Source: Chloracidobacterium validum
Lineage (GTDB): Bacteria; Acidobacteriota; Blastocatellia; Chloracidobacteriales; Chloracidobacteriaceae
Assembly (NCBI RefSeq): GCF_018304825.1
Contig: NZ_CP072648.1
Location: 913,501 to 977,500 of the forward strand
DNA length: 64,000 nt
Direction of reading: 5' to 3'
The translations under genes and the position numbers were made by a program. This document shows, piece after piece, positions 4,688 through 50,134 of this stretch; within the stretch, counting starts at the first letter, position 1, and the number at the start of each line of letters is the position of its first letter. Below the pieces are notes generated by a model that was given only the letters and a program-made list of their open reading frames with translations, did no database searches and had not been told where the DNA came from.

Positions 4688-4767
4688 GATAAAGTTCCTC
4701 GTTTAGGGGATTGGTGGCGGCGCTCGATTGACTAGGTGCGCGAATTGACGCTACCGCCAGAGACGTG

Positions 4768-5982: not shown

Positions 5983-6026
5983 GGCTTACACGATTGACGA
6001 AACCGATGGGTGGACCCGCCCCGTGC

Positions 6027-7736: not shown

Positions 7737-7908
7737 GTGTTTTTCGGTCCGCCGGTCTTGGCTACAACAAGCCCGCGCCGACGGCAGTTTATGAAATGAA
7801 ATCAAAGAAGCTTAGCTGCCTTTTACCAAAGTGGCGGGAAAAACGCCATGACTTGCTTCAAACGCAGGCGTATGCGCTGGAGCAACCGGGTGGCTGACTA
7901 GGCGGGTG

Positions 7909-10677
7909 TTATGAAGCGCCGTGACAGTTTTTATACTTCTTGCCTGAGCCACAGGGACAGGGCTCATTCCGCCCAACCTTAGGCGTCCGCCGCACGACCT
8001 GCCCCCCTGACCCGGCACGAGCTGCGCTAGCGTTGGCAGCCGTGTAAACCTGTCCGGTCACTGGGCGCGGAGCAGGCAATGGCACCGCCGGCCTGGGTTG
8101 GGGCGCGACGCGGGAAAGGTTCGCCGGGGCGATTGCCTCGCTGGCGACCTCGAAGCTCCCACTCTCAACGTCCTCAGCCTCGATTTCGAGCGCCGAAGCT
8201 TCCGCGACCTCGACGCGCATGTTGAACAGAATGCGGACACACTCTTCATCCATCCGGTCAATCATCTCTTCAAAGAGGCGACTGGACTCCTTCTTGTATT
8301 CAATCAGCGGGTCCTTCTGACCGTAGCCACGCAAGCCAACCCCTTCTTTCAGGTGATCAAGCGTGGCAAGATGTTTTTTCCAGTGGGCGTCAACGACATT
8401 GAGCATGACGTGGCGCTCAAGCTGCCGCAGGTTCTCAGCCCCGACCTTGGCCTCGCGCGCCTTATGGCGCTCCAGGACGGTCTGCCATACTTTGTCACGG
8501 ATTTCATCTCGGCTCAGATGATCGAAGTCGAGCTGTTCCGCCTCACAGTCAAAGGCATAAATGTCGAGCAAGGCGACTCGGAGCCCATCCACATCCCATT
8601 CCTCTGGGCGTCCGTGGAGGTAGCGGCGAATAACGTCACCAAGCAAGTCTTCCGCCAGATGAATGAACTCCCGTCCCCCATCTGCACCTTCCATGAGTTC
8701 CTGGCGCAGTCCGTAGATGGTGCCGCGCTGGAGATTCATGACATCGTCATATTCGAGCAGATGTTTGCGGATCGAGAAGTTATGGGCTTCAACTGACTTT
8801 TGGGCAGCTTCCACGCGCCGCGATACCATCCGGCTTTCAATCGCCACGCCCTGTTCCATGCCCAGGGTGAGCATGACTTTTTTGAGCCGGTCGCCACCAA
8901 AAATCCGCATCAGGTCGTCTTCGAGCGAGAGGTAGAAGCGGGAAGAGCCGGGGTCGCCTTGCCGCCCAGCTCGACCGCGTAACTGGTTGTCAATCCGGCG
9001 CGATTCATGGCGCTCACTGCCGATGATGTGCAGTCCGCCGATGGCGACGACCTCTGCGTGTTCGCGGTCAATTTGCGCCTTGATTTGATCGAAAACAGCC
9101 TGGCGCTCTTCGGGGGAAACCTCCGCCGGATTGCGCTCCTGCCGTCGCAGTTCGGCATCGGTGAGAAAATCTGGGTTGCCGCCCAGCAGAATATCCGTCC
9201 CGCGCCCGGCCATGTTCGTGGCAATCGTGACCGCACCCTTGCGTCCGGCCTGGGCGACGATTTCCGCTTCGCGCTCGTGATACTTGGCGTTGAGAACGTT
9301 ATGTGGAATCCCGATGGCTTCGAGCTTGCGTGAAACCAGTTCCGAGTTAGCTACGGATGCCGTCCCCACCAGAATCGGCTGTCCGGTTTGGTGGCGTTCC
9401 TTGATTTCTTCAACAATCGCATCCCACTTTTCTTCGGCCGTCCGGTAGATAAGGTCTGGATAGTCCTGACGAATCATGGGCCGGTGGGTTGGAATGACCG
9501 TAACTTCCAGATCGTAAATTTTGGCAAACTCTGGCGCTTCGGTTTCCGCCGTGCCGGTCATGCCGGCCAACTTCTCGTACATGCGAAAGTAGTTTTGGAG
9601 CGTGATCGTCGCCAGCGTCTGGGTTTCAGCCTCAATTTTGACGCCTTCCTTGGCTTCGACGGCTTGGTGAAGGCCATCCGACCACCGGCGTCCATCCATC
9701 GGTCGCCCCGTGTGCTCATCCACGATGATGACCTGTCCATCCCGGACCATGTATTCCTTGTCGCGGTGATAGAGCGTGTGAGCCTTGAGCGCTTGGTTGA
9801 CGCAGTGCAACAGCTCGAAGTTCGCCGGGTCGTAAAGATTTTCGATGCCAAGCAGTTTCTCGACCCGCTCGATGCCGACCTCGGTCAGGGCTGCGGTGTG
9901 GGTTTTTTCGTCAACGAGATAGTCCGTTGCGCGGTCCAGCTTGGGGATGACATCGTTGGCCAGGTAGTACTTCTCGCTCGATTCATCTGATGGGCCGGCG
10001 ATGATGAGTGGTGTTCGAGCTTCATCAATCAGGATCGAGTCCACTTCGTCCACGATGGCGAAGTAGTGTCCGCGTTGGACACAGGACGCGACCGCGTATT
10101 TCATATTGTCGCGCAAGTAATCAAAGCCGAACTCGTTGTTGGTACCATAGGTAATATCGCAGGCATAGGCTTCACGGCGCTCGTCGTCATAGAGATGATT
10201 TTGAATGACGCCCACCGACAAGCCCAGAAACCGGTAAATTTTACCCATCCACTCCGCATCGCGCTTGGCGAGATAGTCGTTGACCGTGACCACGTGAACG
10301 CCCCGTCCTGCAAGCGCGTTGAGGTAAACCGGCAGGGTTGCCACAAGCGTTTTGCCTTCCCCGGTGCGCATCTCGGCAATCCGTCCGTGGTGGAGCGCCG
10401 TGCCGCCGATAAGCTGGACATCAAAGTGTCGCATGCCCGTCACGCGGCGTGACGCTTCGCGTACGGTGGCAAAGGCATCCGGGAGAAGGTCATCCAGTGA
10501 CGCTCCGAGGTCGAGGCGTTCCTTGAAGCGGGTAGTTTGCGCCTGTAGCTCGGCATCGGAAAGCGCCTGGAGCTTGGCTTCGCGCTCGTTGATGGCGGTG
10601 ACAATGGGACGAATCCGCTTGAGGTACCGCTCATTAGCGCTACCGAAAATCTTGGCGAGAACCTTATCGAGAAGCAT
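7909..10677 (-). CDS. secA: Preprotein translocase ATPase SecA
   Basis: SecA drives proteins through SecYEG. Visible features are Walker A TGEGKT (105-110), the DEAD-type box DEVD (210-213) with [13 protein letters not shown], the second RecA-like domain ([43 protein letters not shown] in two parts), and a C-terminal zinc-binding tail [14 protein letters not shown] that contacts SecB or the ribosome. The length of 922 residues is ordinary. It is the first gene of a minus-strand series and faces a 526-base spacer that also serves mglB. Identification is secure. Confidence 0.98.
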
Positions 10678-11203
10678 GGAAGTGCCTGGGCGGAATGAGA
10701 AATGAAACGAAGTTGGTCAATGTACCTTCCCTCAGCAAGTCGCCCGGGTAACAGCCAGACGCTTCAGCAGAGCGGTTAAGCCCGGTCTGACATAGTAGGG
10801 AACCAGTGGTGTGGCGTCAAGAAAGGGCAGCTCGCGCATTCGTTTCGCTGGACAGGAGAGTTTTGAGCGGATAAATGCCCTTGAAAGCTTTTTTTCGCCT
10901 ATGCTATGAAGCCGCTTGCTCCAGACAAGCTTCCGTATCGGCGTTTCGCTCGGTGGTGGTGTGGCTTCGGAATGGGTCGGAGTGCGGTAGTGCCGATGCC
11001 GCTTGGAGCAGCCGGCGTGCGGATAACCAGCTACGGTAAGTAACCGGCTATGGTAACCGGCTATGGTAAATGACTGGCGCATGGGGTTCTGAAGGATAAA
11101 CCGGCCACAACTCGCAACATATGAAAACTTGGGCTGCTAGCGCAACTTGGGTGTAGCCAAACTGAGCCGCACGCGCTACCTTTCTCGGCGAGGACGTTAC
11201 AAC
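10678..11203. other. Divergent spacer between secA and mglB, no gene seen
   Basis: I see no convincing gene here. A minus-strand frame at 10732-11082 has no family resemblance and partly consists of repeats. For mglB, a possible promoter is TTGAAA at 10881-10886 and TATGAA at 10905-10910 with 18 bases between, though it lies 300 bases upstream. A short tandem repeat occupies 11024-11070 and is listed separately. No tRNA or riboswitch pattern was recognised. Confidence 0.5.
11024..11070. repeat. Short tandem repeat, 13-bp unit
   Basis: TAACCGGCTATGG is present twice in exact tandem at 11041-11053 and 11054-11066. A degenerate copy, TAACCAGCTACGG, precedes them at 11024-11036, separated by TAAG. 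The array lies in the secA/mglB spacer, about 140 bases before mglB. Its role is unknown; it could be a slippage product or a set of protein-binding sites. Confidence 0.75.
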
Positions 11204-11701
11204 ATGTCAAGTGCCGCGCTGGTGCTGTATGGTGAAGAGTACCAGCAAATCAAGACTATCATCGCCCGTTTGTGTGAAGACGCCAACGCCCGAATGGTCT
11301 TTCTGATCGATAAAAACGGTCAGAAGATCGCCGATCATGGCGACGTTGGCGCCATTGACACAACCAGCTTGGCTTCGCTTACTGCCGGGAACGTCGCCGC
11401 AACCGATGCGCTGGCGCACCTGGTCGGGGAAAAAGAATTTCCAGTGCTCTCGCATGAAGGTGAGCGTGATAATATCCACATCTCAATTGTGGCTCAGCGC
11501 GTCATTCTAGTAGTAATTTTTGACGAACGGTCGAGCTTGGGGTTGGTTCGGTTACGTGTCAAGCGAGCGGCGACGGATATGGCCGAAGTGCTAGAAGCCA
11601 TCGCTCGTAAAGTAGAGGAAGAAAAAGCCCGTGGGGTCAACCTTGAGTCGCCATTTGCCGAAATCACCGAAGATGATATTGACAACCTGTTCTCTGACTG
11701 A
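11204..11701 (+). CDS. mglB: MglB-like Roadblock/LC7 protein, GTPase-activating partner of MglA
   Basis: The 165-residue protein has the Roadblock/LC7 fold typical of MglB, with the diagnostic runs DANARMVFLIDKNGQ and IDTTSLASLTAGNVAA, and GLVRLRVKRA near the C-terminal helix. MglB acts as GTPase-activating protein for MglA and sets cell polarity and motility direction in Myxococcus; in Thermus the pair is linked to type IV pili. The ATG at 11204 is chosen over the frame start at 11147 because homologous sequence begins there (MSSAALVLYGEEY). The C-terminal acidic tail (EITEDDIDNLFSD) is extra. mglA follows after 69 bases, as in other bacteria with this system. Confidence 0.93.
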   Translation: MSSAALVLYGEEYQQIKTIIARLCEDANARMVFLIDKNGQKIADHGDVGAIDTTSLASLTAGNVAATDALAHLVGEKEFPVLSHEGERDNIHISIVAQRVILVVIFDERSSLGLVRLRVKRAATDMAEVLEAIARKVEEEKARGVNLESPFAEITEDDIDNLFSD

Positions 11702-31954: not shown

Positions 31955-34900
31955 ATGACTGAACGCGAGTCGCCGTCAACTGAAGCTGCTGACATCCAGT
32001 CTGATCCACTCCTTGGGATGACGGTGGATGGGAAGTACCGTGTCGAGCGGGTGCTTGGCGTCGGTGGCATGGCCACTGTGTATGCCGCCGTCCGGCTGCA
32101 AATTGGCGATATTGCCGCCATCAAAGTCCTGACGCCAGAATCCACGGCCGTTCCACTGGCCGTTGCCCGTTTTCAGCGGGAAGTGCGGGCCGCCGCGCGG
32201 ATCAAGCACCCAAATGTCGTTTCGATTTATGATTTTGGCACGCTGCCGGACGGTCGCGCCTACATGGTGATGGAATACATCACGGGTGAGTCGCTGCGTG
32301 ACGAACTCAAGCGGATGGGACGTCTTTCCCCAGAGCGCGCGGTTTCGATCATGGTCAGCGTTTGCAACGCCATTCACGCCGCGCATCAGGAGGGCATCCT
32401 GCACCGCGACCTCAAGCCGGAAAACATCATGCTGGCGCGGATGCGGGATGGGTCGGAAGTCGTCAAGGTCGTGGACTTCGGCGTGGCCGAACTCCACGAC
32501 CAGGCGGCTACCTCCGCGGTGACGAAGCTGACGGAGTATGGCTTGATGGTGGGCACACCACACTATATGTCACCGGAGCAGTGCCGCAGCGAGCCGCTCG
32601 ACCCGCGGTCAGATATCTACAGCCTGGGCATCATTCTCTATGAATTGCTGACCGGAACGGTGCCCTTCAACGCCCGTACCGTATCCGCCGTCATCATCCA
32701 GCAAGCCACCGAGGCTCCCCGCCGTCCGCGTGACCTCCACCCGGAGCTAAGCTGGGCGCTGGAGCACGTCGTGTTGCGGGCCTTGGAAAAAGACCCGTCG
32801 CGCCGACCACAAACCGCGGCCGAACTGGGCCAGGATTTGAGTCTGTCGCTGTCAAACATTCGTCCGTCCCTGTCAAGCCAGCGTCCGACCGGTTCACTTG
32901 GCGGCTTTGCGGCGCCGCCAACCCGCGAGATGACCGGTCCGTTGTCACTCACCACCCGTGGCGGAGCCGGAGAGCCGTCGCTGGCGCGCGGTGGCCTGAC
33001 GCGCCGTTCGGGTACGTTGCGGTACGACAGCCTAACCGGCATCCGCAACCTGACCTTTCTCAAGCAAGAAGTCGAGAGCCTGGTCGCGGCGCGCCGCGCG
33101 GCGGCATTGCTCCTGGTCGGAGTGGACGGCATGAAGGACCACAATGACCGACTGGGCTATGCTGCCGGCGACAATCTCCTGCGTGACCTGGCCCACTGGC
33201 TGCGGGAGCATGTCGGTGACCTGGGCATTGTCGCCCGATTCGGCGGCGATGAGTTTGCCATCCTCTTGCCGGGCAGCACAGCCTCAGATGCCATCGTCTT
33301 TGCTGACCAAATGGTGCAACGATTGTCTGAGCAGCGGTTTTTGCGGGCGGAAGTTCCCGATGGCATCGCCTTGCAGGTGACGGTGGCCGTGGTCGTCTCG
33401 CCGGACGATGCCGCAACTGGGGTTGAACTGCTCGATATAGGCGGCCGCGCCCTGTCCGCGGCCAAGGCGCAGTCGCCGGGGCGCGTCTATCGCCGGGGCC
33501 TCGATGACAACGCGCTTCAGCATCACCCAAACTTCAATGCGTTTGTCGGACGGGAACAAGAACTGCACTGGCTAAGCGAAATGTTTGACCGAACCGTGGC
33601 CGGGCGTGGTCAGCCGGTGCTCGTGCTCGGCCCGACCGGAATCGGTAAAACGCGCCTTCTGCACGAGTTTCGGCGGCGATTGGCCGGGCGGGAGGTCACG
33701 TTTCTGACCATGCCATTCTATGAGGCCGGACAGGGAACACCTTACAAGTCCTTTTATGACAGCCTGCGCGCCAGCATTCAGTTGCTGCTTGAAGTCCCCG
33801 AGCCAGCGGATGCCGCGCAGCTTTTCGGTCCACTGGCCGAGCGGGTGGCTTTGGAGTTTGCAACGGAAGATGGCTTCTTGCACTTCTGCGACTCCGTGCA
33901 GTCTGACAATCTGCATGAGCGTTATCTGGCCTTTGACTATCTCGCGGCGCTCTATGCCACGCTGGCCGGTCAGCAAGTCACGGTGTTGTTCGTGGATGAT
34001 GCCCACTTTGCCGATGAACTGAGTTTGGACCTTCTCGCCTATTTGGCCCGTGCCCTGTCCGAACAACGTCTGATGCTCGTTCTCACCGCACGGACGGAAC
34101 TCCTGACCGAGCAGCATCCGTTGCGCAATTGGATGCGGGCCGTCAACCAGTCGGTCGGGTTTGAGTCGCTGACGCTTGAGCCGTTGTCGCTGGAGCATAC
34201 GACCGCGCTCATTCAGACCATCTTTCCCGGTGTCAAGGTGGCTGCCGGCACCGTTGCGCGCCTGCATCACGAAACCCGTGGCAACCCTTTCTTCTTGGCT
34301 GAAACCCTGCGTCACCTGACCCAGACGCAACACATTGTGCGTCAGCCAGACGGTTGGTCGTTCCCCCCGCTGACGGATGTTTCACTGCCGCCTTCGGTGG
34401 TCGAAGTCGTCGAAGCCACCTTTTCCCGGCTTTCGCCCAGCGCCCTTGAACTGCTCTCCCAGGCGGCCGTGATCGGCATGGACTTCACCTTCGATTTGTT
34501 ACTGACCATTACGGAACGCCCGGAACGGGAAGTTTTGGCCGCGGTTGAGGAAGGACTAGCCCAGGGCGTGATCACCGAGATCACCGAAGCCGAAGAGGAC
34601 AGTTACCGTTTTCGCCATGGAACGGTGCAAAAGGTGCTGTACAACCGTCTCAATCGCCGTCGGCGTCGCACGACGCACGCTGCCGTCGGCTATGCGCTGG
34701 AGCGGGCCGCAACGGCGACCGGCCACGGCGGGCGACTGGCCGGAGAGCTGGCTTTTCACTTCCACCACGCAGCGGAACACCTGCCGACGTTGCGTTACGC
34801 CTCGGCCGCCGGCACCCAGGCCTGGCGAACCTGGGCCATTGACGAAGCCCTCAAGTTCTACGGCTGGGCCGAAGAAGCTGAGCGGCGACTGAACATCCTG

Positions 34901-36124
34901 GTGGATGTCATTTTTGATGAAAAACAAGCGTCGTTCGACAATGTCCCCGTGGAGCAACTGCGGCTCATTGCCGACTTCAATCTCCACTACGGGCAACTTC
35001 TCGTGCATATCGGCCGGCTGGATGAGGCGGAAAAGAAGCTTCAGCTTGCCCAAACATTGGCCCGTCCCTCTCAGGATGAGCACCTGCGGGGCAAAACGCT
35101 GGCCGCCTTGGGCGAGCTGTGCGAATCCCGCAGTGAGTACTCCTCGGCGCTCCTGTACTGCCATCAGTCCCTTGAAGTCCTGCGGCGCAAGGGCGACAAG
35201 CGCGCCGAAGCGCGGACCACGGCCGTCATCGGCACACTCTATGACCGGCTTGGGCAATTTGCGCGCGCGGCCGAAGCGCTGGATAAAGCCCTGACCCTGG
35301 CCCGCGCCATACGCGACCGCAACGTCGAGGCGCTGGCCCTGCGGGAAGGCGCGTTCGTTCGCGCGCGGCAGGGGCAGTTTGCCACGGCGACATCCCTGGC
35401 CAGGGAAGCCGTCACCGTCGCCGAACGCCTGGGCGACCCGCTCGGTGTCTCAATTGCGACAAGTATTCTAGGTTCGGCGCTGCGTGCCCAGGGCGTTTAT
35501 GAAACCGCCTTGGAACACTTTGAGCGCGCGCGTCAGTTGACCTCCGACCTGAACCGTCCACGCAGTGAGTGCATCGAACTCATCAACTTGGCCGAATCCC
35601 TGATCGGACTGGGCGAAGCGCCCCAGGCGTTGGAAAAAGGCCAGAAGGCGCTCGATATTGCCCTTCAGATCGGCAGTCGTCAGCTCGAGGGACTGGCGAC
35701 GCTCGTCGTCGGCCGGGCCTATCGCCAGCGGGATGAGTTAGGGGCGGCGGTGGTCTGTTTCCAGTCGGCGCTGAAATTGTTGTCGGCCATCAGCGACCGC
35801 GCCGCCGAGTGTGACGCCCTGCTGGCGCTGGCCGACTGGCACTGCCTGGACCGCCATCCGGTCGAGGCGCTGGAACTCGTCCACCAGGCATCCACGGTGC
35901 TGCCGGATGTCACCGCTTGGCCCTGGCAGTGGCGCATCGCCGTGATGTCGGCACGGTGCCACCGCCTGCTGCGGCAGATGGAGGCGGCGCGGTCCGACCT
36001 TGAAAAAGCCCGCACCATTGTCGAAAACCTCCGCGCCAATCTCAGCGCAGAAGTCAGACCCGAGCACTTTGCGCGCGTCATCCAACTGTTTGAGGCGGAG
36101 TGGCAGGAAGTGCACGGCGGCTGA
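31955..36124 (+). CDS. Ser/Thr kinase - GGDEF - AAA ATPase - TPR fusion protein
   Basis: A 1,389-residue soluble protein with four modules. (1) Hanks kinase, about 28-290: glycine loop LGVGGMATVY, Lys57, HRDLKPENI with Asp152, DFG at 174-176, GTPHYMSPEQ. (2) GGDEF domain, about 355-505: YDSLTGIRN, GVDGMKDHNDRLGYAAGD and an intact RFGGDEF (GGDEF at 430-434); the RxxD inhibitory site is not seen. (3) AAA_16-type P-loop ATPase, starting FVGREQEL at about 530, Walker A GPTGIGKT (559-566), Walker B VLFVDDAHF (about 675). (4) Helical TPR-like repeats, about 950-1370. Kinase-AAA-TPR proteins resemble PknK/LuxR-type regulators; the diguanylate cyclase-like insert is unusual. No membrane helix or DNA-binding domain is visible. 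The start ATG at 31955 is the first in frame. Confidence 0.9.
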   Translation: MTERESPSTEAADIQSDPLLGMTVDGKYRVERVLGVGGMATVYAAVRLQIGDIAAIKVLTPESTAVPLAVARFQREVRAAARIKHPNVVSIYDFGTLPDGRAYMVMEYITGESLRDELKRMGRLSPERAVSIMVSVCNAIHAAHQEGILHRDLKPENIMLARMRDGSEVVKVVDFGVAELHDQAATSAVTKLTEYGLMVGTPHYMSPEQCRSEPLDPRSDIYSLGIILYELLTGTVPFNARTVSAVIIQQATEAPRRPRDLHPELSWALEHVVLRALEKDPSRRPQTAAELGQDLSLSLSNIRPSLSSQRPTGSLGGFAAPPTREMTGPLSLTTRGGAGEPSLARGGLTRRSGTLRYDSLTGIRNLTFLKQEVESLVAARRAAALLLVGVDGMKDHNDRLGYAAGDNLLRDLAHWLREHVGDLGIVARFGGDEFAILLPGSTASDAIVFADQMVQRLSEQRFLRAEVPDGIALQVTVAVVVSPDDAATGVELLDIGGRALSAAKAQSPGRVYRRGLDDNALQHHPNFNAFVGREQELHWLSEMFDRTVAGRGQPVLVLGPTGIGKTRLLHEFRRRLAGREVTFLTMPFYEAGQGTPYKSFYDSLRASIQLLLEVPEPADAAQLFGPLAERVALEFATEDGFLHFCDSVQSDNLHERYLAFDYLAALYATLAGQQVTVLFVDDAHFADELSLDLLAYLARALSEQRLMLVLTARTELLTEQHPLRNWMRAVNQSVGFESLTLEPLSLEHTTALIQTIFPGVKVAAGTVARLHHETRGNPFFLAETLRHLTQTQHIVRQPDGWSFPPLTDVSLPPSVVEVVEATFSRLSPSALELLSQAAVIGMDFTFDLLLTITERPEREVLAAVEEGLAQGVITEITEAEEDSYRFRHGTVQKVLYNRLNRRRRRTTHAAVGYALERAATATGHGGRLAGELAFHFHHAAEHLPTLRYASAAGTQAWRTWAIDEALKFYGWAEEAERRLNILVDVIFDEKQASFDNVPVEQLRLIADFNLHYGQLLVHIGRLDEAEKKLQLAQTLARPSQDEHLRGKTLAALGELCESRSEYSSALLYCHQSLEVLRRKGDKRAEARTTAVIGTLYDRLGQFARAAEALDKALTLARAIRDRNVEALALREGAFVRARQGQFATATSLAREAVTVAERLGDPLGVSIATSILGSALRAQGVYETALEHFERARQLTSDLNRPRSECIELINLAESLIGLGEAPQALEKGQKALDIALQIGSRQLEGLATLVVGRAYRQRDELGAAVVCFQSALKLLSAISDRAAECDALLALADWHCLDRHPVEALELVHQASTVLPDVTAWPWQWRIAVMSARCHRLLRQMEAARSDLEKARTIVENLRANLSAEVRPEHFARVIQLFEAEWQEVHGG

Positions 36125-40730: not shown

Positions 40731-43700
40731 ATGCCATCACGCGGGTGGATTTGGCTACTTGGTCTGTGGTTGGCGTTAGGTGGACTGGGTGAAATTTCCG
40801 GTGCCGATGGGGAGGCGTCGTCACCGTCGGGGCCGACCTTGCGCCCCTTCACGCGCCTGTTCACCGGAAAAGACGGATTGCCCCAGGTGTCGGCGATGAG
40901 CCTGGCGACCGACGCGCAGGGCTATCTCTGGGTGGCGACGCAGGACGGCGCGGCCCGATTCGACGGGCGTGCTTGGCAGTCCTTTGCCGTGCCGAATCGC
41001 AGCCGGTCAAACTTTCTCCGGGTATGCCTTGCCACCCGTGATGGGCGGGTGTGGTTTGGCCGGCAAGATGGCGGGTTGGCCTGCCGTCTGCCGGATGGCA
41101 CCTGGGAAAACTATGACGAAGCTCAGGGCTTGCCGGCCGGACGGGTCAACGGTCTCCTGGAGCGTTCAGACGGCGCGCTTTGGATTGGAACGGAACAGGG
41201 CCTGTCCGTATGGATGCCAACCACGTCGCGGGTGACACCGCTCCCGGCGACGCACGCCACCGGGCGGGTGCTTGCCCTGGCGGAAACCGCCGACGGCCTG
41301 GTTTGGCTTGGGACGGCCCAGGGATTGGCCAGCTCCGATGGAAAGACCTGCGAAATCGTCGCCAACGGGCCGACCGGGAGCGTGTTTGCCACGTTCGTTG
41401 ACGGGACTGGGGCGCTCTGGGTTGGCGGCCGAGACGGTTTGCTTTGGCGTCGGGAAAGCCAAACCTGGCAGCGTTGGCCATTGCCGACCCGGAGCCGCGT
41501 GACGGCGCTGACCGAAACCGTGCTGCCCAGCGGTGAACGTCGGCTCTGGATTGCCACCGATGGCGACGGGCTGTTTTACACCCGCTCCGATGGCCGCCCG
41601 GACCTGGCCGGCGTTCAGGCGTTCGATGCATCATACGGTTTGCCGAACATCAGCGTCTGGAGCTTGCTCCCGCTCCCGGCGGCCGACCCCGGCCGCCACG
41701 TTGGGCTGTGGGTTGGGACGGATGGCGGATTACTGCACGTCTCGTTTACCGGATGGGCGACGCTGGACAATGTTCCGGCACTGGCCGGGGCAAGCGTGTA
41801 CGGCATGGGCACGGCCACGGGGCCGGACGGGACGACGAACTACTGGTTTGGGACGCGCGGCAAGGGGCTGGTTGGCTACGTGGATGGGCGCTGGCGCCAG
41901 CTCACCATGGCCGACGGACTCTCCACCAACACTGTGTTCAGTGTTCATGAGTCGTTCGATCCGAAGACCGGCAGTACGCTCTGGATCGGAACGCAGTTGG
42001 GGCTATTCCGCAAGTCCGGGCAGGGGCGGCCGTTGCCGGTGCGCGACGCGCCAGGGCTTGAAAAAGCAAGCATTCGCGCTTTTCTGGCGTCAGATGGTTG
42101 GCGTGGCCGGCCGGGGCTGTGGGTGGTTACGGCCGAAGTGGGACTGGCACGCTTTGAAGATGGGCAGTGGTCATCATTCACAACCGCCAATGGCCTACCA
42201 ACCAACGCCCTGCACAGCATTTGTGAGAGCGTCGCGCCGGATGGTGAAAAGACCATCTGGGTGGGCACGGAAGGCGGCGGACTGGCGCGGTGGCGTAACG
42301 GGCGATGGGACACCTGGCAAACGCCGACATTGCCCAACAACACGGTCATGACGGTGCAAGCCATGACCTTTCCCGATGGCAAGCAGTTTCTGTTCGCCGG
42401 GACGGAAGGTGGCGGTCTGGTGACGGCCGAACTGAACCTGCCTGAGCTGCGCTTCCACGTCTGGTCACAAGCCACCACACCGGGCTTTCCGAACGATACC
42501 GTGTATCAGGTGCAGTTCGATGCTGAGCGGCGGGCTTACGCGCTCACCAACCAGGGGGCTGCCCGGCTAACCTACCAGGGGAACGGCACCTTCACGATTG
42601 AAACGTTTGACGCGGAAGATGGTCTCCCCAGCGGCGAGTTCAATGGCGGCGCTTCGATGGTGGATCCATCGGGGCGCATCTGGGGCGGCACGCCCAATGG
42701 CGTTGCCGTGTTTGATCCGGCGGTCAATGCCTTACCGCCACCCCCACGCCGGCCGGTGCTTCAGGCAATGACAACCGGGGCGACCAATCTTTTGCTCACC
42801 GATGGGCTGACGGTGCCCTACAGTGCGCGTAACTTGACATTTGATGTCTCCACGCCAGTGTTTGCGTCGCCTGCGCGGTTGCGTTACCGAACCTACCTTG
42901 AAGGCTTCGATGAACAGCCAAGCGTGTGGAGCGCCGAACCGCGCCGGTCGTTCACCAACCTCTGGCCGGGCGAATATGTTTTTCAAGCGTGGGCACGGGA
43001 TGGGCAGGGGCGTGAAAGCCAGCCGGTCCAACTCCGTTTTCGGGTCGCTACCCCGTGGTGGTTGCGGTGGTGGGCGTGGGTGGGGTACGTAGGCTGTGGG
43101 GTTGGACTGGTGTACGGCGGGGTGCGGTGGCGACTGCGGGCGCTGGAGCGCCAAAACGCCGAACTGGAAGCCAAGGTGGCCGAGCGGACGGCGGCGCTGG
43201 AAGCGGCCAAGACCGAGGTGGAAGCCCAGAACCAGGCGTTGGCGGCGGCCAAGACGGAAGTGGAGCGCAAGAACGCGGCGCTGGACGAGAAGGTGGCGGC
43301 GCTGGAAGCGTCGCAGCGGCGTGCGGATCGGATTTTTTCGGCTCTGGCGGAAGCGCTGCCTGGGACGGTGCTGGATGGGAAGTACCGGCTTGGGGAGAAG
43401 TTGGGGGCTGGGGGGTATGGGGTGGTGTTTGCCGGGGAGCACCTTGGGTTGAAGCGGGCGGTGGCGGTGAAGGTGTTCAAGCCGGTAGCCGGGAACGACA
43501 GCGCGGAGGCGCTGGAGCGGTTTCGGCGGGAAGGGGCGTTGGCGGCGCAGATCAAGGATCGGCACGTGGTGGAGGTGGTGGACGCTGGGGTATCGAGCGA
43601 GGGGATGGCGTACTTGGTGATGGAGTTGCTGGAGGGGTACGCGCTGACGCGGGAGGTGCGGGGTGGGGTGAGCGTGGAGCGTGCGCTGCGGGTGTGTGGG

Positions 43701-44330
43701 GCGGTGTGTCGTGGGCTGGCGGCGGCGCATGAGCTGGGGGTGGTGCATCGGGACGTGAAGCCGGAGAATGTGTATGTGGATTGGTCGAGTGGGGAAGAGG
43801 TGGTGAAGGTGGTGGATTTTGGGATTGCGACGGTGGTGGAGCGTGGGAGTGGGGAGGTGTTGGAGACGCTGACGGCGGCTGGGTCGGTGGTTGGGACGCC
43901 GGCCTACATTGCGCCGGAGCGGGTGGTTGGGGGGACGTATGATGGGCGTGCGGATGTGTATGGGGTTGGGGTGATGTTGTACGAGATGGTGTGTGGGGCG
44001 GTGCCGTTTGGAGGTGGTGGGGAGAGTGGGATACGGGTGTTGTTGGCGCACGTGCATGAGGCGGCGGAGGCGCCGGCGGCGCGGGTGGCGGGGTTGGATG
44101 AGGAAGTGAGTGCGTATGTGCTGCGGATGCTGGCGAAGCGGCCGGAGGAGCGTCCGACGGCGGCGGAGGCGGCGGCGGACCTTGACCGCCTGGCGGACAA
44201 GGTCCGTTGTCAACGAACCTTGGACTTCGAGCCGGCAACCACCAAACCAGAGGATTGGGATACATTGGTTGAAGCCCGGCGGCGGACCATCAACATTCGG
44301 CGTGATACGGCAATGGACAAGAACGCATAG
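40731..44330 (+). CDS. Periplasmic propeller/Y_Y_Y sensor Ser/Thr kinase, copy 1
   Basis: A signal peptide (WIWLLGLWLALGG) is followed by about 650 residues of repeats of the two-component-regulator propeller type (repeated LWIGTEQGL, VWLGTAQGLA, IWVGTEGGGLARW), then a Y_Y_Y domain (LRYRTYLEGFD, WPGEYVFQAWARDGQG), one membrane helix (about 778-800, WWAWVGYVGCGVGLVYGG), a heptad coiled coil (about 803-867) and a complete Hanks kinase (about 882-1155) with LGAGGYGVVF, HRDVKPENV (Asp1008), DFG (1029-1031) and GTPAYIAPE. In most proteins with this sensor the output is a histidine kinase; here it is a Ser/Thr kinase. Start choice between ATG 40731 and GTG 40713 is uncertain. An 1,148-bp part is repeated in the next gene. 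Confidence 0.9.
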   Translation: MPSRGWIWLLGLWLALGGLGEISGADGEASSPSGPTLRPFTRLFTGKDGLPQVSAMSLATDAQGYLWVATQDGAARFDGRAWQSFAVPNRSRSNFLRVCLATRDGRVWFGRQDGGLACRLPDGTWENYDEAQGLPAGRVNGLLERSDGALWIGTEQGLSVWMPTTSRVTPLPATHATGRVLALAETADGLVWLGTAQGLASSDGKTCEIVANGPTGSVFATFVDGTGALWVGGRDGLLWRRESQTWQRWPLPTRSRVTALTETVLPSGERRLWIATDGDGLFYTRSDGRPDLAGVQAFDASYGLPNISVWSLLPLPAADPGRHVGLWVGTDGGLLHVSFTGWATLDNVPALAGASVYGMGTATGPDGTTNYWFGTRGKGLVGYVDGRWRQLTMADGLSTNTVFSVHESFDPKTGSTLWIGTQLGLFRKSGQGRPLPVRDAPGLEKASIRAFLASDGWRGRPGLWVVTAEVGLARFEDGQWSSFTTANGLPTNALHSICESVAPDGEKTIWVGTEGGGLARWRNGRWDTWQTPTLPNNTVMTVQAMTFPDGKQFLFAGTEGGGLVTAELNLPELRFHVWSQATTPGFPNDTVYQVQFDAERRAYALTNQGAARLTYQGNGTFTIETFDAEDGLPSGEFNGGASMVDPSGRIWGGTPNGVAVFDPAVNALPPPPRRPVLQAMTTGATNLLLTDGLTVPYSARNLTFDVSTPVFASPARLRYRTYLEGFDEQPSVWSAEPRRSFTNLWPGEYVFQAWARDGQGRESQPVQLRFRVATPWWLRWWAWVGYVGCGVGLVYGGVRWRLRALERQNAELEAKVAERTAALEAAKTEVEAQNQALAAAKTEVERKNAALDEKVAALEASQRRADRIFSALAEALPGTVLDGKYRLGEKLGAGGYGVVFAGEHLGLKRAVAVKVFKPVAGNDSAEALERFRREGALAAQIKDRHVVEVVDAGVSSEGMAYLVMELLEGYALTREVRGGVSVERALRVCGAVCRGLAAAHELGVVHRDVKPENVYVDWSSGEEVVKVVDFGIATVVERGSGEVLETLTAAGSVVGTPAYIAPERVVGGTYDGRADVYGVGVMLYEMVCGAVPFGGGGESGIRVLLAHVHEAAEAPAARVAGLDEEVSAYVLRMLAKRPEERPTAAEAAADLDRLADKVRCQRTLDFEPATTKPEDWDTLVEARRRTINIRRDTAMDKNA
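43053..44200 (+). repeat. 1,148-bp direct repeat, copy 1 (membrane helix to kinase end)
   Basis: This block matches 46726-47873 base for base at a constant offset of 3,673 with no insertion or deletion. I found five differences, at 43085, 43358, 43686, 44043 and 44177, all silent. It spans the membrane helix, coiled coil and kinase domain. Sequence on both sides diverges at once. No inverted ends or target duplications are seen. Confidence 0.95.
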
Positions 44331-44352
44331 CTCGATCGTGAGGCGGCATACG

Positions 44353-47300
44353 TTGGAACGGCTTCTTTCCAAGCAGTGGCGCGGTTGGGGGCGGCGAGCC
44401 ATCCTCTGGTTGGGATGGCTGTTGGCTGGCAGTTTGGTTTCGGCCGCCGCCAATGTCCGTGAAGCCCTACCGACACTACGCCCGGCCCTGCGCGTTTTTA
44501 CGGATCGCGACGGCCTGCCCCAAAATACCGTTGGGGCCATGACCTGGGATCGCCAGGGACGCCTATGGGTGGGAACACAGGATGGACTGGCGTGCTACAA
44601 CGGGCAACGGTGGCGGACCGTGGCGTTTCCCGCCACCGCCAAGTCGCGCAACATCCGCGCCCTGCTGGCGACTGCCGACGATGCCCTGTGGGTCGGCACA
44701 CTCGATGGTGTGCTGCGTCTCCAGGCTGGCCAGTGGACGAGCTTTGGGCCGCACGAGGCGGCCGAAACCGGCAAGTTTCCAGGCCGTGAAGTGTACGCCT
44801 TACTTGAGGAAGCCACGCCACAGGGGCCGGTCGTGTGGGCCGGTGGCGATGGTGGCGTGGCGCGCTTCAGCGGCGGCCGCTGGGAGGCGGTCCCTATCCG
44901 GGCCAGCCTCCCCAGCGTGACGGTAAAGTGTCTCGCCCGCACGGTAGATGCCGCCGGGCAAACGGTGCTCTGGATTGGAACCACCAACCGCGGTCTGGTG
45001 CGCCAAGTGGGTGATGAAGCGCGTGTGCTCGGTCTCGACACCGGCCTTCCGGGCGAGTACATCACCTGCCTGCTGGCTGTCCAAAGCGCCGATGGTCAGC
45101 CGCAGGTGTGGGGTGGCACGCAAGGGGGCGGCGTGTTTCAACTGGATGGGCAAGGTGCCGTGCTTCAGCGGTTTGACCCGAAAACCTCGCCGCTGCCCAA
45201 CGGACGGATTCAGTGCCTGGCTCAGTCGGTCGCGCCGGATGGGGCGCGTCACCTGTGGATTGGAATGGATGGGAGCGGTGTCGCCTGCTACACGGGACGT
45301 GGCTGGCAGGTTTACACGCCAAAGCAGGGGCTTCCCGCCGAGCGAGTTTTTTCACTGCTCCAAGAAACCGGCGATGTGACACCCGCTGTCTGGATTGGCA
45401 CCGGCGGCGGCGGTTTGGCGCGCTGTGATCTCGAAGGCTGGCAGTCCCTGACGGTCAGCGAAGGATTGCCAGACCGCCGGGTGTATGCCTTTCTCGAATC
45501 GGCGGGGCGCAATGGCAAGCGCTGTTTCTGGATTGGAACGTCGGGCGGACTCCTCCGCGCCGAGGCTGGCCAGCTTCAAACCTTTACCCGCAAAGATGGC
45601 TTGCCCGGCGATACCGTGCTGAGTCTGGCCGAGACCCGCGCCCCAGACGGCGCGTCAATCATCTGGGCCGGGTGCGACGGCGGACTGGCCAAGTGGGTTG
45701 GCAACCGCTGGCAAGCCGAGCCAACCCCATGCGATGGCAAGTATGGAACCGTCTATTTTTCATTGGCCGTGACCAACCATCCAACCGGACAACCCATCCT
45801 CTGGGCTTTTACCTATGATGGTGTCCAGTATCTCGAAAACGGACGGTGGCAACGGGTGACACTGCCCGGATTTGAAGAAAAACATATTCCAACGTCGGTG
45901 ATGCGCGATCCTCTGCGACCAGATGTGCTGTGGGGCAGCGTCTATGGAATGGGCGTTCTGCGCTATGCCGATGGACAGTGGACACAACTGCCACGCCAGG
46001 GATTACCGACCGATTTGCTGCTTGGCGTCGGCGTCTTTGAGGTCCAGGGTCAACCCCAGCTCTGGGTTGGCACGCAAAGCCAGGGCGTGGTGCGCTATGA
46101 CCCGGAGCGGACTGAGATGCCCTGGACAAACTTTTCTGAGCAGAGCCAACCGCCGCTGCCCAATAATCACGTCTATGGGGTGGTCGTGGATGCGCTCGGA
46201 CGCTTGTATTTCCCCACCAACCGGGGTGTCGCGCAGTGGACGTTCAGCGACGGCAGTCGTCAGCCGACCCAAACCCGCACCTTCACCATGGACTATGGCT
46301 TGCCAAGCAATGAGTGCAACCAGGGAGCGTTTTACCGGGATAGCGCCGGCCGGCTCTGGATTGGCACGGTGGCAGGCGCGGCCGTGTATGATCCAGGCTT
46401 GGAGATCACGCCTCCACTGCGTTCGCTCGTCATGGAGCAGGTGTTTGTCAACGGTCGTCCGGCGCGTCTGGCATTGGGACAGCGCCTCGCTTATGCCGAC
46501 AACAACCTGGCGTTCGAGTACGCCTTGCTTGACTTCACCGAGCCGCAGGCGATCCGCTACCGGGTTCAACTGGACGGCTACGACCGCGCCCCATCCGACT
46601 GGGTGTCCGAAGCCAAAGCGGTTTACACCAACGTTCCCGCCGGAAACTATCGTTTGCGGATTTGGGCGCGTGATGCGCGCGGCCGGGTCGTCGAAATGTC
46701 GCCGCTGGCGTTTGAGGTGCTGTCACCGTGGTGGTTGCGGTGGTGGGCGTGGGTGGGATACGTAGGCTGTGGGGTTGGACTGGTGTACGGCGGGGTGCGG
46801 TGGCGACTGCGGGCGCTGGAGCGCCAAAACGCCGAACTGGAAGCCAAGGTGGCCGAGCGGACGGCGGCGCTGGAAGCGGCCAAGACCGAGGTGGAAGCCC
46901 AGAACCAGGCGTTGGCGGCGGCCAAGACGGAAGTGGAGCGCAAGAACGCGGCGCTGGACGAGAAGGTGGCGGCGCTGGAAGCGTCGCAGCGGCGTGCGGA
47001 TCGGATTTTTTCGGCTCTGGCGGAAGCGCTACCTGGGACGGTGCTGGATGGGAAGTACCGGCTTGGGGAGAAGTTGGGGGCTGGGGGGTATGGGGTGGTG
47101 TTTGCCGGGGAGCACCTTGGGTTGAAGCGGGCGGTGGCGGTGAAGGTGTTCAAGCCGGTAGCCGGGAACGACAGCGCGGAGGCGCTGGAGCGGTTTCGGC
47201 GGGAAGGGGCGTTGGCGGCGCAGATCAAGGATCGGCACGTGGTGGAGGTGGTGGACGCTGGGGTATCGAGCGAGGGGATGGCGTACTTGGTGATGGAGTT

Positions 47301-47985
47301 GCTGGAGGGGTACGCGCTGACGCGGGAGGTGCGGGGTGGGGTGAGCGTGGAGCGTGCGTTGCGGGTGTGTGGGGCGGTGTGTCGTGGGCTGGCGGCGGCG
47401 CATGAGCTGGGGGTGGTGCATCGGGACGTGAAGCCGGAGAATGTGTATGTGGATTGGTCGAGTGGGGAAGAGGTGGTGAAGGTGGTGGATTTTGGGATTG
47501 CGACGGTGGTGGAGCGTGGGAGTGGGGAGGTGTTGGAGACGCTGACGGCGGCTGGGTCGGTGGTTGGGACGCCGGCCTACATTGCGCCGGAGCGGGTGGT
47601 TGGGGGGACGTATGATGGGCGTGCGGATGTGTATGGGGTTGGGGTGATGTTGTACGAGATGGTGTGTGGGGCGGTGCCGTTTGGAGGTGGTGGGGAGAGT
47701 GGGATACGGGTGTTGCTGGCGCACGTGCATGAGGCGGCGGAGGCGCCGGCGGCGCGGGTGGCGGGGTTGGATGAGGAAGTGAGTGCGTATGTGCTGCGGA
47801 TGCTGGCGAAGCGGCCGGAGGAGCGTCCGACGGCGGCGGAGGCGGCGGCTGACCTTGACCGCCTGGCGGACAAAGTACAGGGAACGACGGATGGGAAAGT
47901 CCGTTCCATCGCTGCGCAGTTTCCAACGAAAGCGACTTTGGTGACGACAGACGAAACAAAACCAACCCCAAGTTCACGCGAGTGA
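44353..47985 (+). CDS. Periplasmic propeller/Y_Y_Y sensor Ser/Thr kinase, copy 2
   Basis: Same architecture as the preceding gene: signal peptide (AILWLGWLLAGSLVSAAA), propeller repeats (LWVGTQDGLACYNG, LWIGMDGSGVACY, IGTGGGGLARC), Y_Y_Y domain (IRYRVQLDGYD, PAGNYRLRIWARDARG), membrane helix, coiled coil and kinase with catalytic Asp1025 and DFG at 1046-1048. The sensor halves of the two proteins are clearly diverged, while the helix-to-kinase part is identical in protein sequence. TTG 44353 is chosen because GAGG lies nine bases before it; GTG 44338 is an alternative. The gene starts 22 bases after copy 1 and nine bases separate it from the PH-domain gene, so an operon is likely. The two C-terminal tails differ. 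Confidence 0.9.
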   Translation: MERLLSKQWRGWGRRAILWLGWLLAGSLVSAAANVREALPTLRPALRVFTDRDGLPQNTVGAMTWDRQGRLWVGTQDGLACYNGQRWRTVAFPATAKSRNIRALLATADDALWVGTLDGVLRLQAGQWTSFGPHEAAETGKFPGREVYALLEEATPQGPVVWAGGDGGVARFSGGRWEAVPIRASLPSVTVKCLARTVDAAGQTVLWIGTTNRGLVRQVGDEARVLGLDTGLPGEYITCLLAVQSADGQPQVWGGTQGGGVFQLDGQGAVLQRFDPKTSPLPNGRIQCLAQSVAPDGARHLWIGMDGSGVACYTGRGWQVYTPKQGLPAERVFSLLQETGDVTPAVWIGTGGGGLARCDLEGWQSLTVSEGLPDRRVYAFLESAGRNGKRCFWIGTSGGLLRAEAGQLQTFTRKDGLPGDTVLSLAETRAPDGASIIWAGCDGGLAKWVGNRWQAEPTPCDGKYGTVYFSLAVTNHPTGQPILWAFTYDGVQYLENGRWQRVTLPGFEEKHIPTSVMRDPLRPDVLWGSVYGMGVLRYADGQWTQLPRQGLPTDLLLGVGVFEVQGQPQLWVGTQSQGVVRYDPERTEMPWTNFSEQSQPPLPNNHVYGVVVDALGRLYFPTNRGVAQWTFSDGSRQPTQTRTFTMDYGLPSNECNQGAFYRDSAGRLWIGTVAGAAVYDPGLEITPPLRSLVMEQVFVNGRPARLALGQRLAYADNNLAFEYALLDFTEPQAIRYRVQLDGYDRAPSDWVSEAKAVYTNVPAGNYRLRIWARDARGRVVEMSPLAFEVLSPWWLRWWAWVGYVGCGVGLVYGGVRWRLRALERQNAELEAKVAERTAALEAAKTEVEAQNQALAAAKTEVERKNAALDEKVAALEASQRRADRIFSALAEALPGTVLDGKYRLGEKLGAGGYGVVFAGEHLGLKRAVAVKVFKPVAGNDSAEALERFRREGALAAQIKDRHVVEVVDAGVSSEGMAYLVMELLEGYALTREVRGGVSVERALRVCGAVCRGLAAAHELGVVHRDVKPENVYVDWSSGEEVVKVVDFGIATVVERGSGEVLETLTAAGSVVGTPAYIAPERVVGGTYDGRADVYGVGVMLYEMVCGAVPFGGGGESGIRVLLAHVHEAAEAPAARVAGLDEEVSAYVLRMLAKRPEERPTAAEAAADLDRLADKVQGTTDGKVRSIAAQFPTKATLVTTDETKPTPSSRE
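46726..47873 (+). repeat. 1,148-bp direct repeat, copy 2
   Basis: Partner of 43053-44200. The five differing positions here are 46758 (A), 47031 (A), 47359 (T), 47716 (C) and 47850 (T). Each changes a codon to a synonym for Gly, Leu, Leu, Leu and Ala. The identity ends exactly where the kinase domain ends, before the unrelated tails. Confidence 0.95.
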
Positions 47986-47994
47986 GGTGGTCGC

Positions 47995-48639
47995 ATGCCA
48001 GATTCCATGCCTGAAACGGCTACACTTGAAGCGCCGTCAAACAACCAGCCCGAAACCACCCTGCCGCCTTCGCTCGTATCACAAGCCGCGCCGGTCGTGG
48101 ATGAGCCAATGCGTCTGGAACCGGATGTCATCGCTTTGTGGCGGCTCAATGGTGGAATTGAGTGGGCCATGCTGCTCGGACTTGCCTTTGTGGCGATAAC
48201 CATCGGCAGCATCATCTTGTCGCTGGGCATGTGGTTCTGGCTGCTTCTGGCCGCCTGGGTTGTCATGGCGCTACTGGCGGTTGTCCAGACGATTTGGTAT
48301 CCACCTCTAGCCTACCGGCACTATGCCTACCGCATTGCCGAGCGCGTCATTGAGGTACGCCACGGGGTGTGGTTTCGTGAAAGTCGCCTTGTGCCACTGT
48401 CACGCATCCAACACGTTGATCTTCGGCAGGGACTGTTTGAGCGGTCATACGGCCTGGCAACGCTCGTTTTTCACACTGCCGGCATGCATGAGTCGAGCAC
48501 CGTTTTGCCCGGACTGGCCCTGGCGACCGCGACCGACCTCCGCGATCGATTGATGGCGCAGATTCACGGCGGCCGTCCGCTTCGCCGTGAATCACCACAC
48601 CCTGGCGAAGCCGTATCTGAGGCCGGGCATGGCGGCTGA
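47995..48639 (+). CDS. PH-domain (bPH2) membrane protein, YdbS type
   Basis: After a Pro-rich N-terminal tail of about 45 residues come two membrane helices (about 57-100: MLLGLAFVAITIGSIIL and MWFWLLLAAWVVMALLAVV) and one bacterial PH domain: AYRIAERVIEVRHGVWFRESRLVPLSRIQHVDLRQGLFERSYGLATLVFHTAG (in parts). GTGAGG upstream supports the ATG. YdbS/YdbT pairs are linked in Bacillus to resistance against antimicrobial compounds. The gene follows the second kinase by nine bases and overlaps the next gene by 11, so it may be part of the kinase operon; a functional link is inference. Confidence 0.88.
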   Translation: MPDSMPETATLEAPSNNQPETTLPPSLVSQAAPVVDEPMRLEPDVIALWRLNGGIEWAMLLGLAFVAITIGSIILSLGMWFWLLLAAWVVMALLAVVQTIWYPPLAYRHYAYRIAERVIEVRHGVWFRESRLVPLSRIQHVDLRQGLFERSYGLATLVFHTAGMHESSTVLPGLALATATDLRDRLMAQIHGGRPLRRESPHPGEAVSEAGHGG

Positions 48640-50134
48640 AGCCAATTCGTTGTCCGCCGGCCGCTTGGCGGGACGGCTGCATCCGTGGACGCTGGCATTC
48701 GGCCTCCTGGCCGTGGCGCGGCAAATGCTCATTCCGCTGCTGTACTGGGTCTTTTCCGGTTTTGGGTTCTTCGGCACATTGCTGGTTCTGGTCTTTGGCG
48801 TGCCAAACCTGCTGTTGGTGGTCGCGCGGTACTGGAGCTTCCGTTACCGCGTGGAAGCCGAAGAACTCGTCGTCGAGCAGGGCATCCTGCGCCGTCAGGA
48901 GCGGCATATCCCGCTAGCCAACATCCAGGAGATTCGGCTGGAGCAAAATCTCATCCAGCGTCAACTTGGTGTAGCGCGGGCCGACATCGAGACTTCTACT
49001 GGTGGTGGCATTGAGGCCTCCCTGGCCGTGCTTTCGGTGGGCGATATTGCGCGGTTGCGTCAGCGGGTGTTCGGTCACCGCCCGGTGGCAGCCGTGGAAG
49101 CGCAGACGGGCGCGGATGAAGTGCCGATTGTTGCCGTAGGCCCCCGCGAACTGCTCTTGGCCGGACTGACCTCAAACGGCGTTTTTACGTTGTTTATTGT
49201 GCTGGGTGCGCTGACGCGGTTTGCCGAAGAATGGCTCCCTGAAACGGCGCGCCGGTTGGTGTGGCAGGGACTTGAAAACCTGGCGGTGACGCTCGGCGGC
49301 CGGAGCTGGATGACGGTCTTGGCACTGCTGGTGGGGGTGGTCGGCGGGTTGCTGGTGGTTAGTACGGTAGTTTCCAGCTTGCTCTCGCTTGCGCGATTTT
49401 ACGATTTTCGGCTGACCCAACACGGAACCGCCTTGCGGCGCACCTATGGACTGTTGACACGCCATGTCAGCAACTTGTCACCGGCGCGTATTCAGTTGAT
49501 TGCCATCGAGCAAACGCTGGTGCGGCGCTTCTTTGGCTGGGCTGCGCTGCGCGTGGATGTGGCCGGCGTTGCCTACGAACGCGACGAAGAGCAGCAGGGG
49601 CGGGGACTGCTGGCTCCGCTGCTGGAGCGCGGCGCGGCCGAACGCTTGCTCCCACGGTTTTTGAACGACTGTGACCTCGACCCACAGGCTTGGCAGCCGG
49701 TGTCACCGCTGGCGATTCGACGCGGTATCTGGCGTCGGTCGGCCTGGCTGGTGGCGCTGACGGCCGGTGCGCTGTGGTGGTCGGGCCTGCCCTATGGGCT
49801 GTGGCCGTTGACGCTCTTCCCGGTCATCATTTGGGTGAGTTGGCTGGATTACCGCGCGCGGGGCTACATCGCCGGTGAGGCGTACTGGTTTGTTCGGCAA
49901 GGATGGATCAACCGGGCGACATACGTCATTCCGGTCTGCCAGATTCAGTCGGTAGTCGTTGCCCAAACCCCTTTTGATTGGCGGTTGGGCCTGGCAACGC
50001 TCATCCTGGATACCGCCGGACAGACGCCAGTGGTCATTCGGGATGTCCCAGTCGCTGAAGCCGAGGCGCTCGGCCGTCAAACGGTGTCTCGGGCTGAAAC
50101 TGCCGCACTGGAGATGACACCGAGTGGTGGATAG
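48629..50134 (+). CDS. Multi-PH-domain membrane protein, YdbT type
   Basis: Contains bPH2 modules in series, separated by paired membrane helices: YRVEAEELVVEQGILRRQERHIPLANIQEIRLEQNL, then LARFYDFRLTQHGTALRRTYGLLTRHVSNLSPARIQLIAIEQTLV, then AYWFVRQGWINRATYVIPVCQIQSVVV (each cited in part as landmark). About six membrane helices. The ATG at 48629, with GAGG six bases before it, is preferred over GTG 48587. It overlaps the stop of the YdbS-type gene by 11 bases. The two proteins are expected to form one membrane complex. A weak hairpin with a short T-run at 50164-50185 may end the operon. Confidence 0.88.
   Translation: MAAEANSLSAGRLAGRLHPWTLAFGLLAVARQMLIPLLYWVFSGFGFFGTLLVLVFGVPNLLLVVARYWSFRYRVEAEELVVEQGILRRQERHIPLANIQEIRLEQNLIQRQLGVARADIETSTGGGIEASLAVLSVGDIARLRQRVFGHRPVAAVEAQTGADEVPIVAVGPRELLLAGLTSNGVFTLFIVLGALTRFAEEWLPETARRLVWQGLENLAVTLGGRSWMTVLALLVGVVGGLLVVSTVVSSLLSLARFYDFRLTQHGTALRRTYGLLTRHVSNLSPARIQLIAIEQTLVRRFFGWAALRVDVAGVAYERDEEQQGRGLLAPLLERGAAERLLPRFLNDCDLDPQAWQPVSPLAIRRGIWRRSAWLVALTAGALWWSGLPYGLWPLTLFPVIIWVSWLDYRARGYIAGEAYWFVRQGWINRATYVIPVCQIQSVVVAQTPFDWRLGLATLILDTAGQTPVVIRDVPVAEAEALGRQTVSRAETAALEMTPSGG

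Follow-up and report, generated by a model that had tools for sequence, protein, structure and literature searches.

Tandem receptor Ser/Thr kinases in Chloracidobacterium validum with divergent propeller sensors and one shared, G-biased kinase module

Organization of the locus

The window is a 64,000 nt stretch of DNA from Chloracidobacterium validum, whose genome consists of two contigs of 2.66 and 1.00 Mb. Two adjacent genes in the window, W1 and W2, each encode a signal peptide, propeller repeats, a Y_Y_Y domain, one membrane helix, a coiled coil and a complete Hanks kinase (Table 1). This layout had been proposed from the sequence alone and is confirmed by Pfam and by the kinase motifs. 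The start codon of W1 is ATG. W2 has a non-ATG start, either GTG at position 44338 or TTG at 44353, which is 7–22 bp past the W1 stop codon. A promoter scan at the locus gave nothing above chance.

Two bPH_2 genes, YdbS-like and YdbT-like, begin 9 bases downstream of W2, at the position noted earlier. They follow the kinase gene or genes in every related locus whose downstream side is covered, and the order adh, kinase(s), ydbS, ydbT is conserved in the relatives checked. Based on this conserved gene order, the bPH_2 membrane proteins are regarded as candidate partners of W1 and W2. Elsewhere in the window, positions 31955–36124 encode a single protein with an intact Ser/Thr kinase (HRDLKPEN, DFG), a GGDEF domain with an intact GGDEF motif, an AAA_16 ATPase and TPR repeats.

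Table 1. Positions of the receptor kinase genes, their parts and the downstream genes in the window
Feature	Position	Strand	Basis
W1, receptor Ser/Thr kinase: signal peptide, double propeller, Y_Y_Y, membrane helix, coiled coil, kinase	40731..44330	+	Pfam; structure match to BT3049/BT4663 ectodomains
W1 periplasmic sensor: two propellers and Y_Y_Y (Y_Y_Y ~42861–43046)	40803..43052	+	Pfam, structure comparison
Shared output module, copy 1: membrane helix ~43068–43124, coiled coil, kinase 43383–44174; coterminous with extreme G bias	43053..44200	+	Sequence comparison
W2, second receptor Ser/Thr kinase	44338..47985	+	Open reading frame, Pfam
W2 periplasmic sensor (Y_Y_Y ~46534–46677), 32% identical to W1 sensor	44455..46725	+	Pfam, structure comparison
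Shared output module, copy 2: kinase 47056–47847	46726..47873	+	DNA comparison with copy 1
bPH_2 protein, YdbS-like; gene order same in related genomes	47995..48639	+	Pfam PF03703; synteny
bPH_2 protein, YdbT-like, three bPH_2 stretches	48587..50134	+	Pfam; synteny

Sensor and kinase domains

Reg_prop repeats are found in W1 and W2 with Pfam E values of 3e-20 and 2e-20, respectively. The Y_Y_Y domain of W1 has an E value of 1e-7, above the Pfam cut-off. That of W2 (E value 1.6e-5) is slightly below the cut-off, and the W2 model aligns through this region with solved ectodomains. The predicted ectodomains of both proteins match the periplasmic parts of BT3049 and BT4663 over nearly the full length. 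The models were built from two-sequence alignments and have pLDDT values of 76–79. Foldseek gives an E value of 2.6e-37 for an ectodomain model against 3v9f, and VIA alignments give Z scores of 31–33 over 673–681 residues with rmsd values of 6–10, e.g., Z 32.9 over 681 residues (rmsd 9.1) and Z 32.2 over 678 residues (rmsd 6.2). The high rmsd values are probably the result of hinge differences between domains. The structure predictions thus support the earlier suggestion that the input is of the hybrid two-component type.

The kinase domain is called by Pfam in W1 and W2 with an E value of ~5e-45 each, at 154 bits compared with a curated cut-off of 31.7. The motifs GAGGYG, VAVK, HRDVKPEN, DFG and APE are intact in both, and the best solved-structure match is PknB (E value 5e-48). 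Sequence and structure comparison show that W1 and W2 each consist of a periplasmic double-propeller/Y_Y_Y sensor of hybrid two-component type, a membrane helix, a coiled coil and an intact PknB-type kinase. A frameshifted module remnant with stop codons, located elsewhere in the genome of relative G006, would suit a reading in which the kinases are decaying or inactive passengers and the sensors alone matter. This is very improbable, as W1 and W2 keep every catalytic motif and have identical module protein sequences, the module reading frame is intact in the window, G005, G001 and G003, and the HRD motif is intact in the kinases of relatives.

The shared module

W1 and W2 share a module of approximately 1,150 bp, which consists of the membrane helix, the coiled coil and the kinase. 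The identity starts at the proline codon that precedes the membrane helix. The two copies are ~99.4–99.5% identical in DNA (5 differences in 1,148 bp, or 7 in 1,152 bp including the ends) and 100% identical in protein. Identity between the two sensors is ~32%. The sequence-only reading of two inputs that feed one identical kinase module is supported.

The sister species G005 has the same pair of genes, and its two modules are 98.3% identical. Between the window and G005, identity is 85.8% for the module, 68.5% for sensor 1 and 73% for sensor 2. The phylogenetic trees are in conflict with a support of 1.000: the sensors cluster by gene and the modules by genome. Paralogous modules are more alike within than between species and the sensor flanks are orthologous, which is the pattern tested for concerted evolution. 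The comparison indicates that the sensors are old and separate, with orthologues in the two species, and that the helix-coiled coil-kinase module has been homogenized repeatedly between the tandem genes, with a sharp edge. Both genes are present in two genomes only, thus concerted evolution is based on two independent pairs. All seven differences between the C. validum copies are silent, and three amino acids differ between the G005 copies. The silent differences imply that the module protein is also under purifying selection.

Within-pair divergences of 0.6% and 1.7% in the two known pairs fit one recent event each, i.e., a single chance copying of the W1 module over the W2 module per lineage, with no ongoing exchange and no functional reason. 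This explanation deserves consideration but is rather doubtful. Repeated exchange fits better with two separate overwrites that, in two species, have the same left edge precisely where the helix begins, and with the putative recombinant fusion of a third species (see below). If the module had been duplicated recently and independently in each lineage, the outcome would look the same, yet the second module would still have to be replaced in place. Other tandem kinase pairs in G007 and G009 have 66–73% identity and are without skew, which shows that homogenization is not general in the family. The C. validum genome also has a tandem Reg_prop/Y_Y_Y-SpoIIE pair (L016, positions 3620–10553), in which the outputs are 83.5% identical in DNA over 1.76 kb and the sensors are 55% identical in amino acid sequence. 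This pair is partly homogenized.

Homogenization of the module would leave each species with two different inputs and one identical output. It is likely that W1 and W2 are single-pass receptor Ser/Thr kinases with old, separate sensors and a module homogenized between the tandem genes, such that two inputs act on one output and the stimuli converge. By analogy with known families, a ligand would bind the propellers and move a dimer formed through Y_Y_Y, the helix and the coiled coil. This movement would join two kinase domains and lead to trans-autophosphorylation on the activation loop. Dimers would be expected in all combinations, W1-W1, W2-W2 and mixed. The helix and coiled coil are identical in W1 and W2, so mixed dimers are likely and both stimuli would act on a common set of substrates.

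The locus in related genomes

In G001, which belongs to the same genus, a single gene consists of sensor 1 (98% identical to that of G005), one module and the tail of gene 2. Sensor 2 was not found elsewhere in the G001 genome. The fusion could be the product expected from recombination between modules; the reverse history also fits. It could in principle be an assembly collapse of the 1.15 kb repeat, but the G001 assembly has only two contigs. G003 and G004 have sensor 1 only, and the G004 gene runs to the contig end inside the module. G006 is without sensor 1 and keeps only the broken module fragment mentioned above. This fragment (L046, positions 5765–6374) is kinase-only, has stop codons and frameshifts, is away from any sensor and has 60% protein identity to W1.

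G bias of the module

The module is distinguished by a GC skew of up to 0.60 on the coding strand. G is present at 81% of its four-fold sites, and all eight four-fold codon families prefer G (68–100%, compared with 25–50% in the sensors). In four of six genes, among them the single-copy G003 gene, the change-point of the bias is no more than one codon away from where the module begins. Against a background of 1.1 Mb sampled from the C. validum genome, the next highest skews are 0.46 in a Uma2 gene (L109, positions 6701–7500), which is among the local values nearest to the module bias, and 0.40 in a DUF4351, Rpn-like gene with repeats. A further gene, Uma2-like by eye and without a Pfam match, has a skew of 0.34 (L116, positions 10801–11600). 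The mean G4Hunter score is 0.86 in the module compared with 0.06 in the window as a whole, and 225 of 254 high-scoring G4Hunter segments are inside the two modules. Several long antisense frames overlap at once across the module because the complements of stop codons are missing in G-rich DNA.

Four-fold G sites differ between species at 12% in the module and 49% in sensor 1 (p 1e-23). Four-fold C sites in the module and in the sensors change at the same rate. G sites thus change four times less and C sites equally often, which implies that the bias is maintained and is not a relic. The exact start of the bias at the module edge, even in the single-copy G003 gene, could be read as a remnant of horizontal gene transfer, the donor having had the same codon use. 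This origin is unlikely: four-fold sites of the neighbouring sensors differ at 50–55% between species, and a relic should have faded, yet 81% G is kept in the module.

Other causes were considered and rejected. Cytosine deamination of the R-loop type would shift C to T, but the codon families that end in C or T show no overall T shift (C:T is 22:26 in the module and 126:122 in the sensors). Duplication or conversion does not account for the skew, as the repeats L016 (83.5%) and L124 (94%) have skews of 0.02–0.05 and the single-copy G003 gene also has the bias. A younger common ancestry does not explain the fewer silent changes in the module, because its C sites change no less often than those of the sensors. 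Codon choice alone is an unlikely explanation because first codon positions are enriched in G as well (0.56 in the module compared with ~0.40 in paralogues). A broader proposal is that the module is dual-purpose DNA, with a quadruplex-prone G-rich strand kept by a DNA-level process that also drives copy exchange, locks the two sensors to one kinase and makes them fusable or splittable by recombination. This proposal is speculative and is given a low probability.

Outputs attached to Y_Y_Y sensors

All Y_Y_Y proteins of the C. validum genome were gathered and their domains scanned with Pfam. There are 15 Pfam-called propeller/Y_Y_Y sensors: 5 with a kinase, 8 with a SpoIIE phosphatase and 2 with a histidine kinase. 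A profile search added a sixth sensor of the kinase type (L023). The order and phylum were surveyed with a profile of the Y_Y_Y-to-kinase stretch, and full-span matches were counted. These are present in seven of seven genomes of the genus and in three other genera of the family, with at least 21 in G007 and 12 in G009, and also in the sister family (G011, G012 and G013). The kinase-type sensor is frequent across the whole order. There were no full-span matches in the rest of the class among the scores listed, in the remainder of a 199-genome sample of the phylum or in 61 genomes of another class. A profile scan of other phyla matched only generic kinases, which carry no information on this architecture.

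Outputs across the phylum were read from 29 genomes, each represented by its best Y_Y_Y protein. They consist of histidine kinases, GGDEF, GGDEF-EAL, a sigma-54 activator, SpoIIE and kinases. In G085 and G097, from another family of the phylum, a different Ser/Thr kinase is fused approximately 50 residues after Y_Y_Y (L224 and L225). The varied outputs, together with this different kinase, imply that the sensor is a general input module in Acidobacteriota. The fusion of a kinase to the Y_Y_Y sensor probably arose more than once, and these comparisons point to the W1/W2 architecture as one of the results of outputs being exchanged frequently behind the sensor in this phylum.

The pair had been described as a special swap from a histidine kinase norm. 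This is not borne out, as only 2 of the 15 sensors of the same genome drive a histidine kinase and other outputs are found across the phylum. The cross-genome search that had been suggested shows that the architecture is common in the order, which removes its presumed rarity; a prior description, the other half of that expectation, was not found in the open literature searched. The lack of a paper there on Reg_prop/Y_Y_Y with a kinase might suggest a rare invention limited to W1 and W2. This is hardly credible and is refuted by the counts: there are six such proteins in the same genome and many more in a relative, the architecture is also in the sister family, and a different kinase is on the same sensor in a further family. 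The W1/W2 architecture is a local variation, found repeatedly, on a known design.

A well-known glycan-sensor module is thus a general-purpose input with at least six output types in one phylum. Two features are added to the sequence-only reading, i.e., a module kept identical by concerted evolution, and its G-biased composition. The locus is a natural case of two receptors held on one kinase by homogenization, in which signal convergence and mixed dimers become testable. A G bias that is confined to part of a coding region and actively kept is a clean example of local strand asymmetry.

Comparison with known systems

The Bacteroides hybrid two-component sensors BT3049, BT4663 and BT4673 have, like W1 and W2, a double propeller with Y_Y_Y, one membrane helix and a coiled coil. 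A Pfam scan of the full W1 and W2 gave no match to HisKA or HATPase_c, and no receiver or AraC-type DNA-binding domain. W1 and W2 carry a Hanks kinase in place of the HisKA/HATPase, receiver and AraC domains. PknB-type Hanks kinases provide the best solved-structure match; W1 and W2 are without PASTA repeats and have the sensor before the membrane helix. The tandem pair L016 is similar to W1/W2 in that tandem sensors have the more similar outputs, but its output is of the phosphatase type, the copies resemble each other less completely and the G bias is absent (skew 0.05).

In PknD, the kinase is N-terminal and a single six-bladed propeller is C-terminal, an arrangement that W1 and W2 do not share. 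PknD of Mycobacterium tuberculosis is a receptor Ser/Thr kinase with an extracellular beta-propeller sensor (PMC2877116). PknD is the known precedent among receptor kinases that sense through a propeller, but in W1 and W2 the sensor is N-terminal and consists of two propellers and Y_Y_Y.
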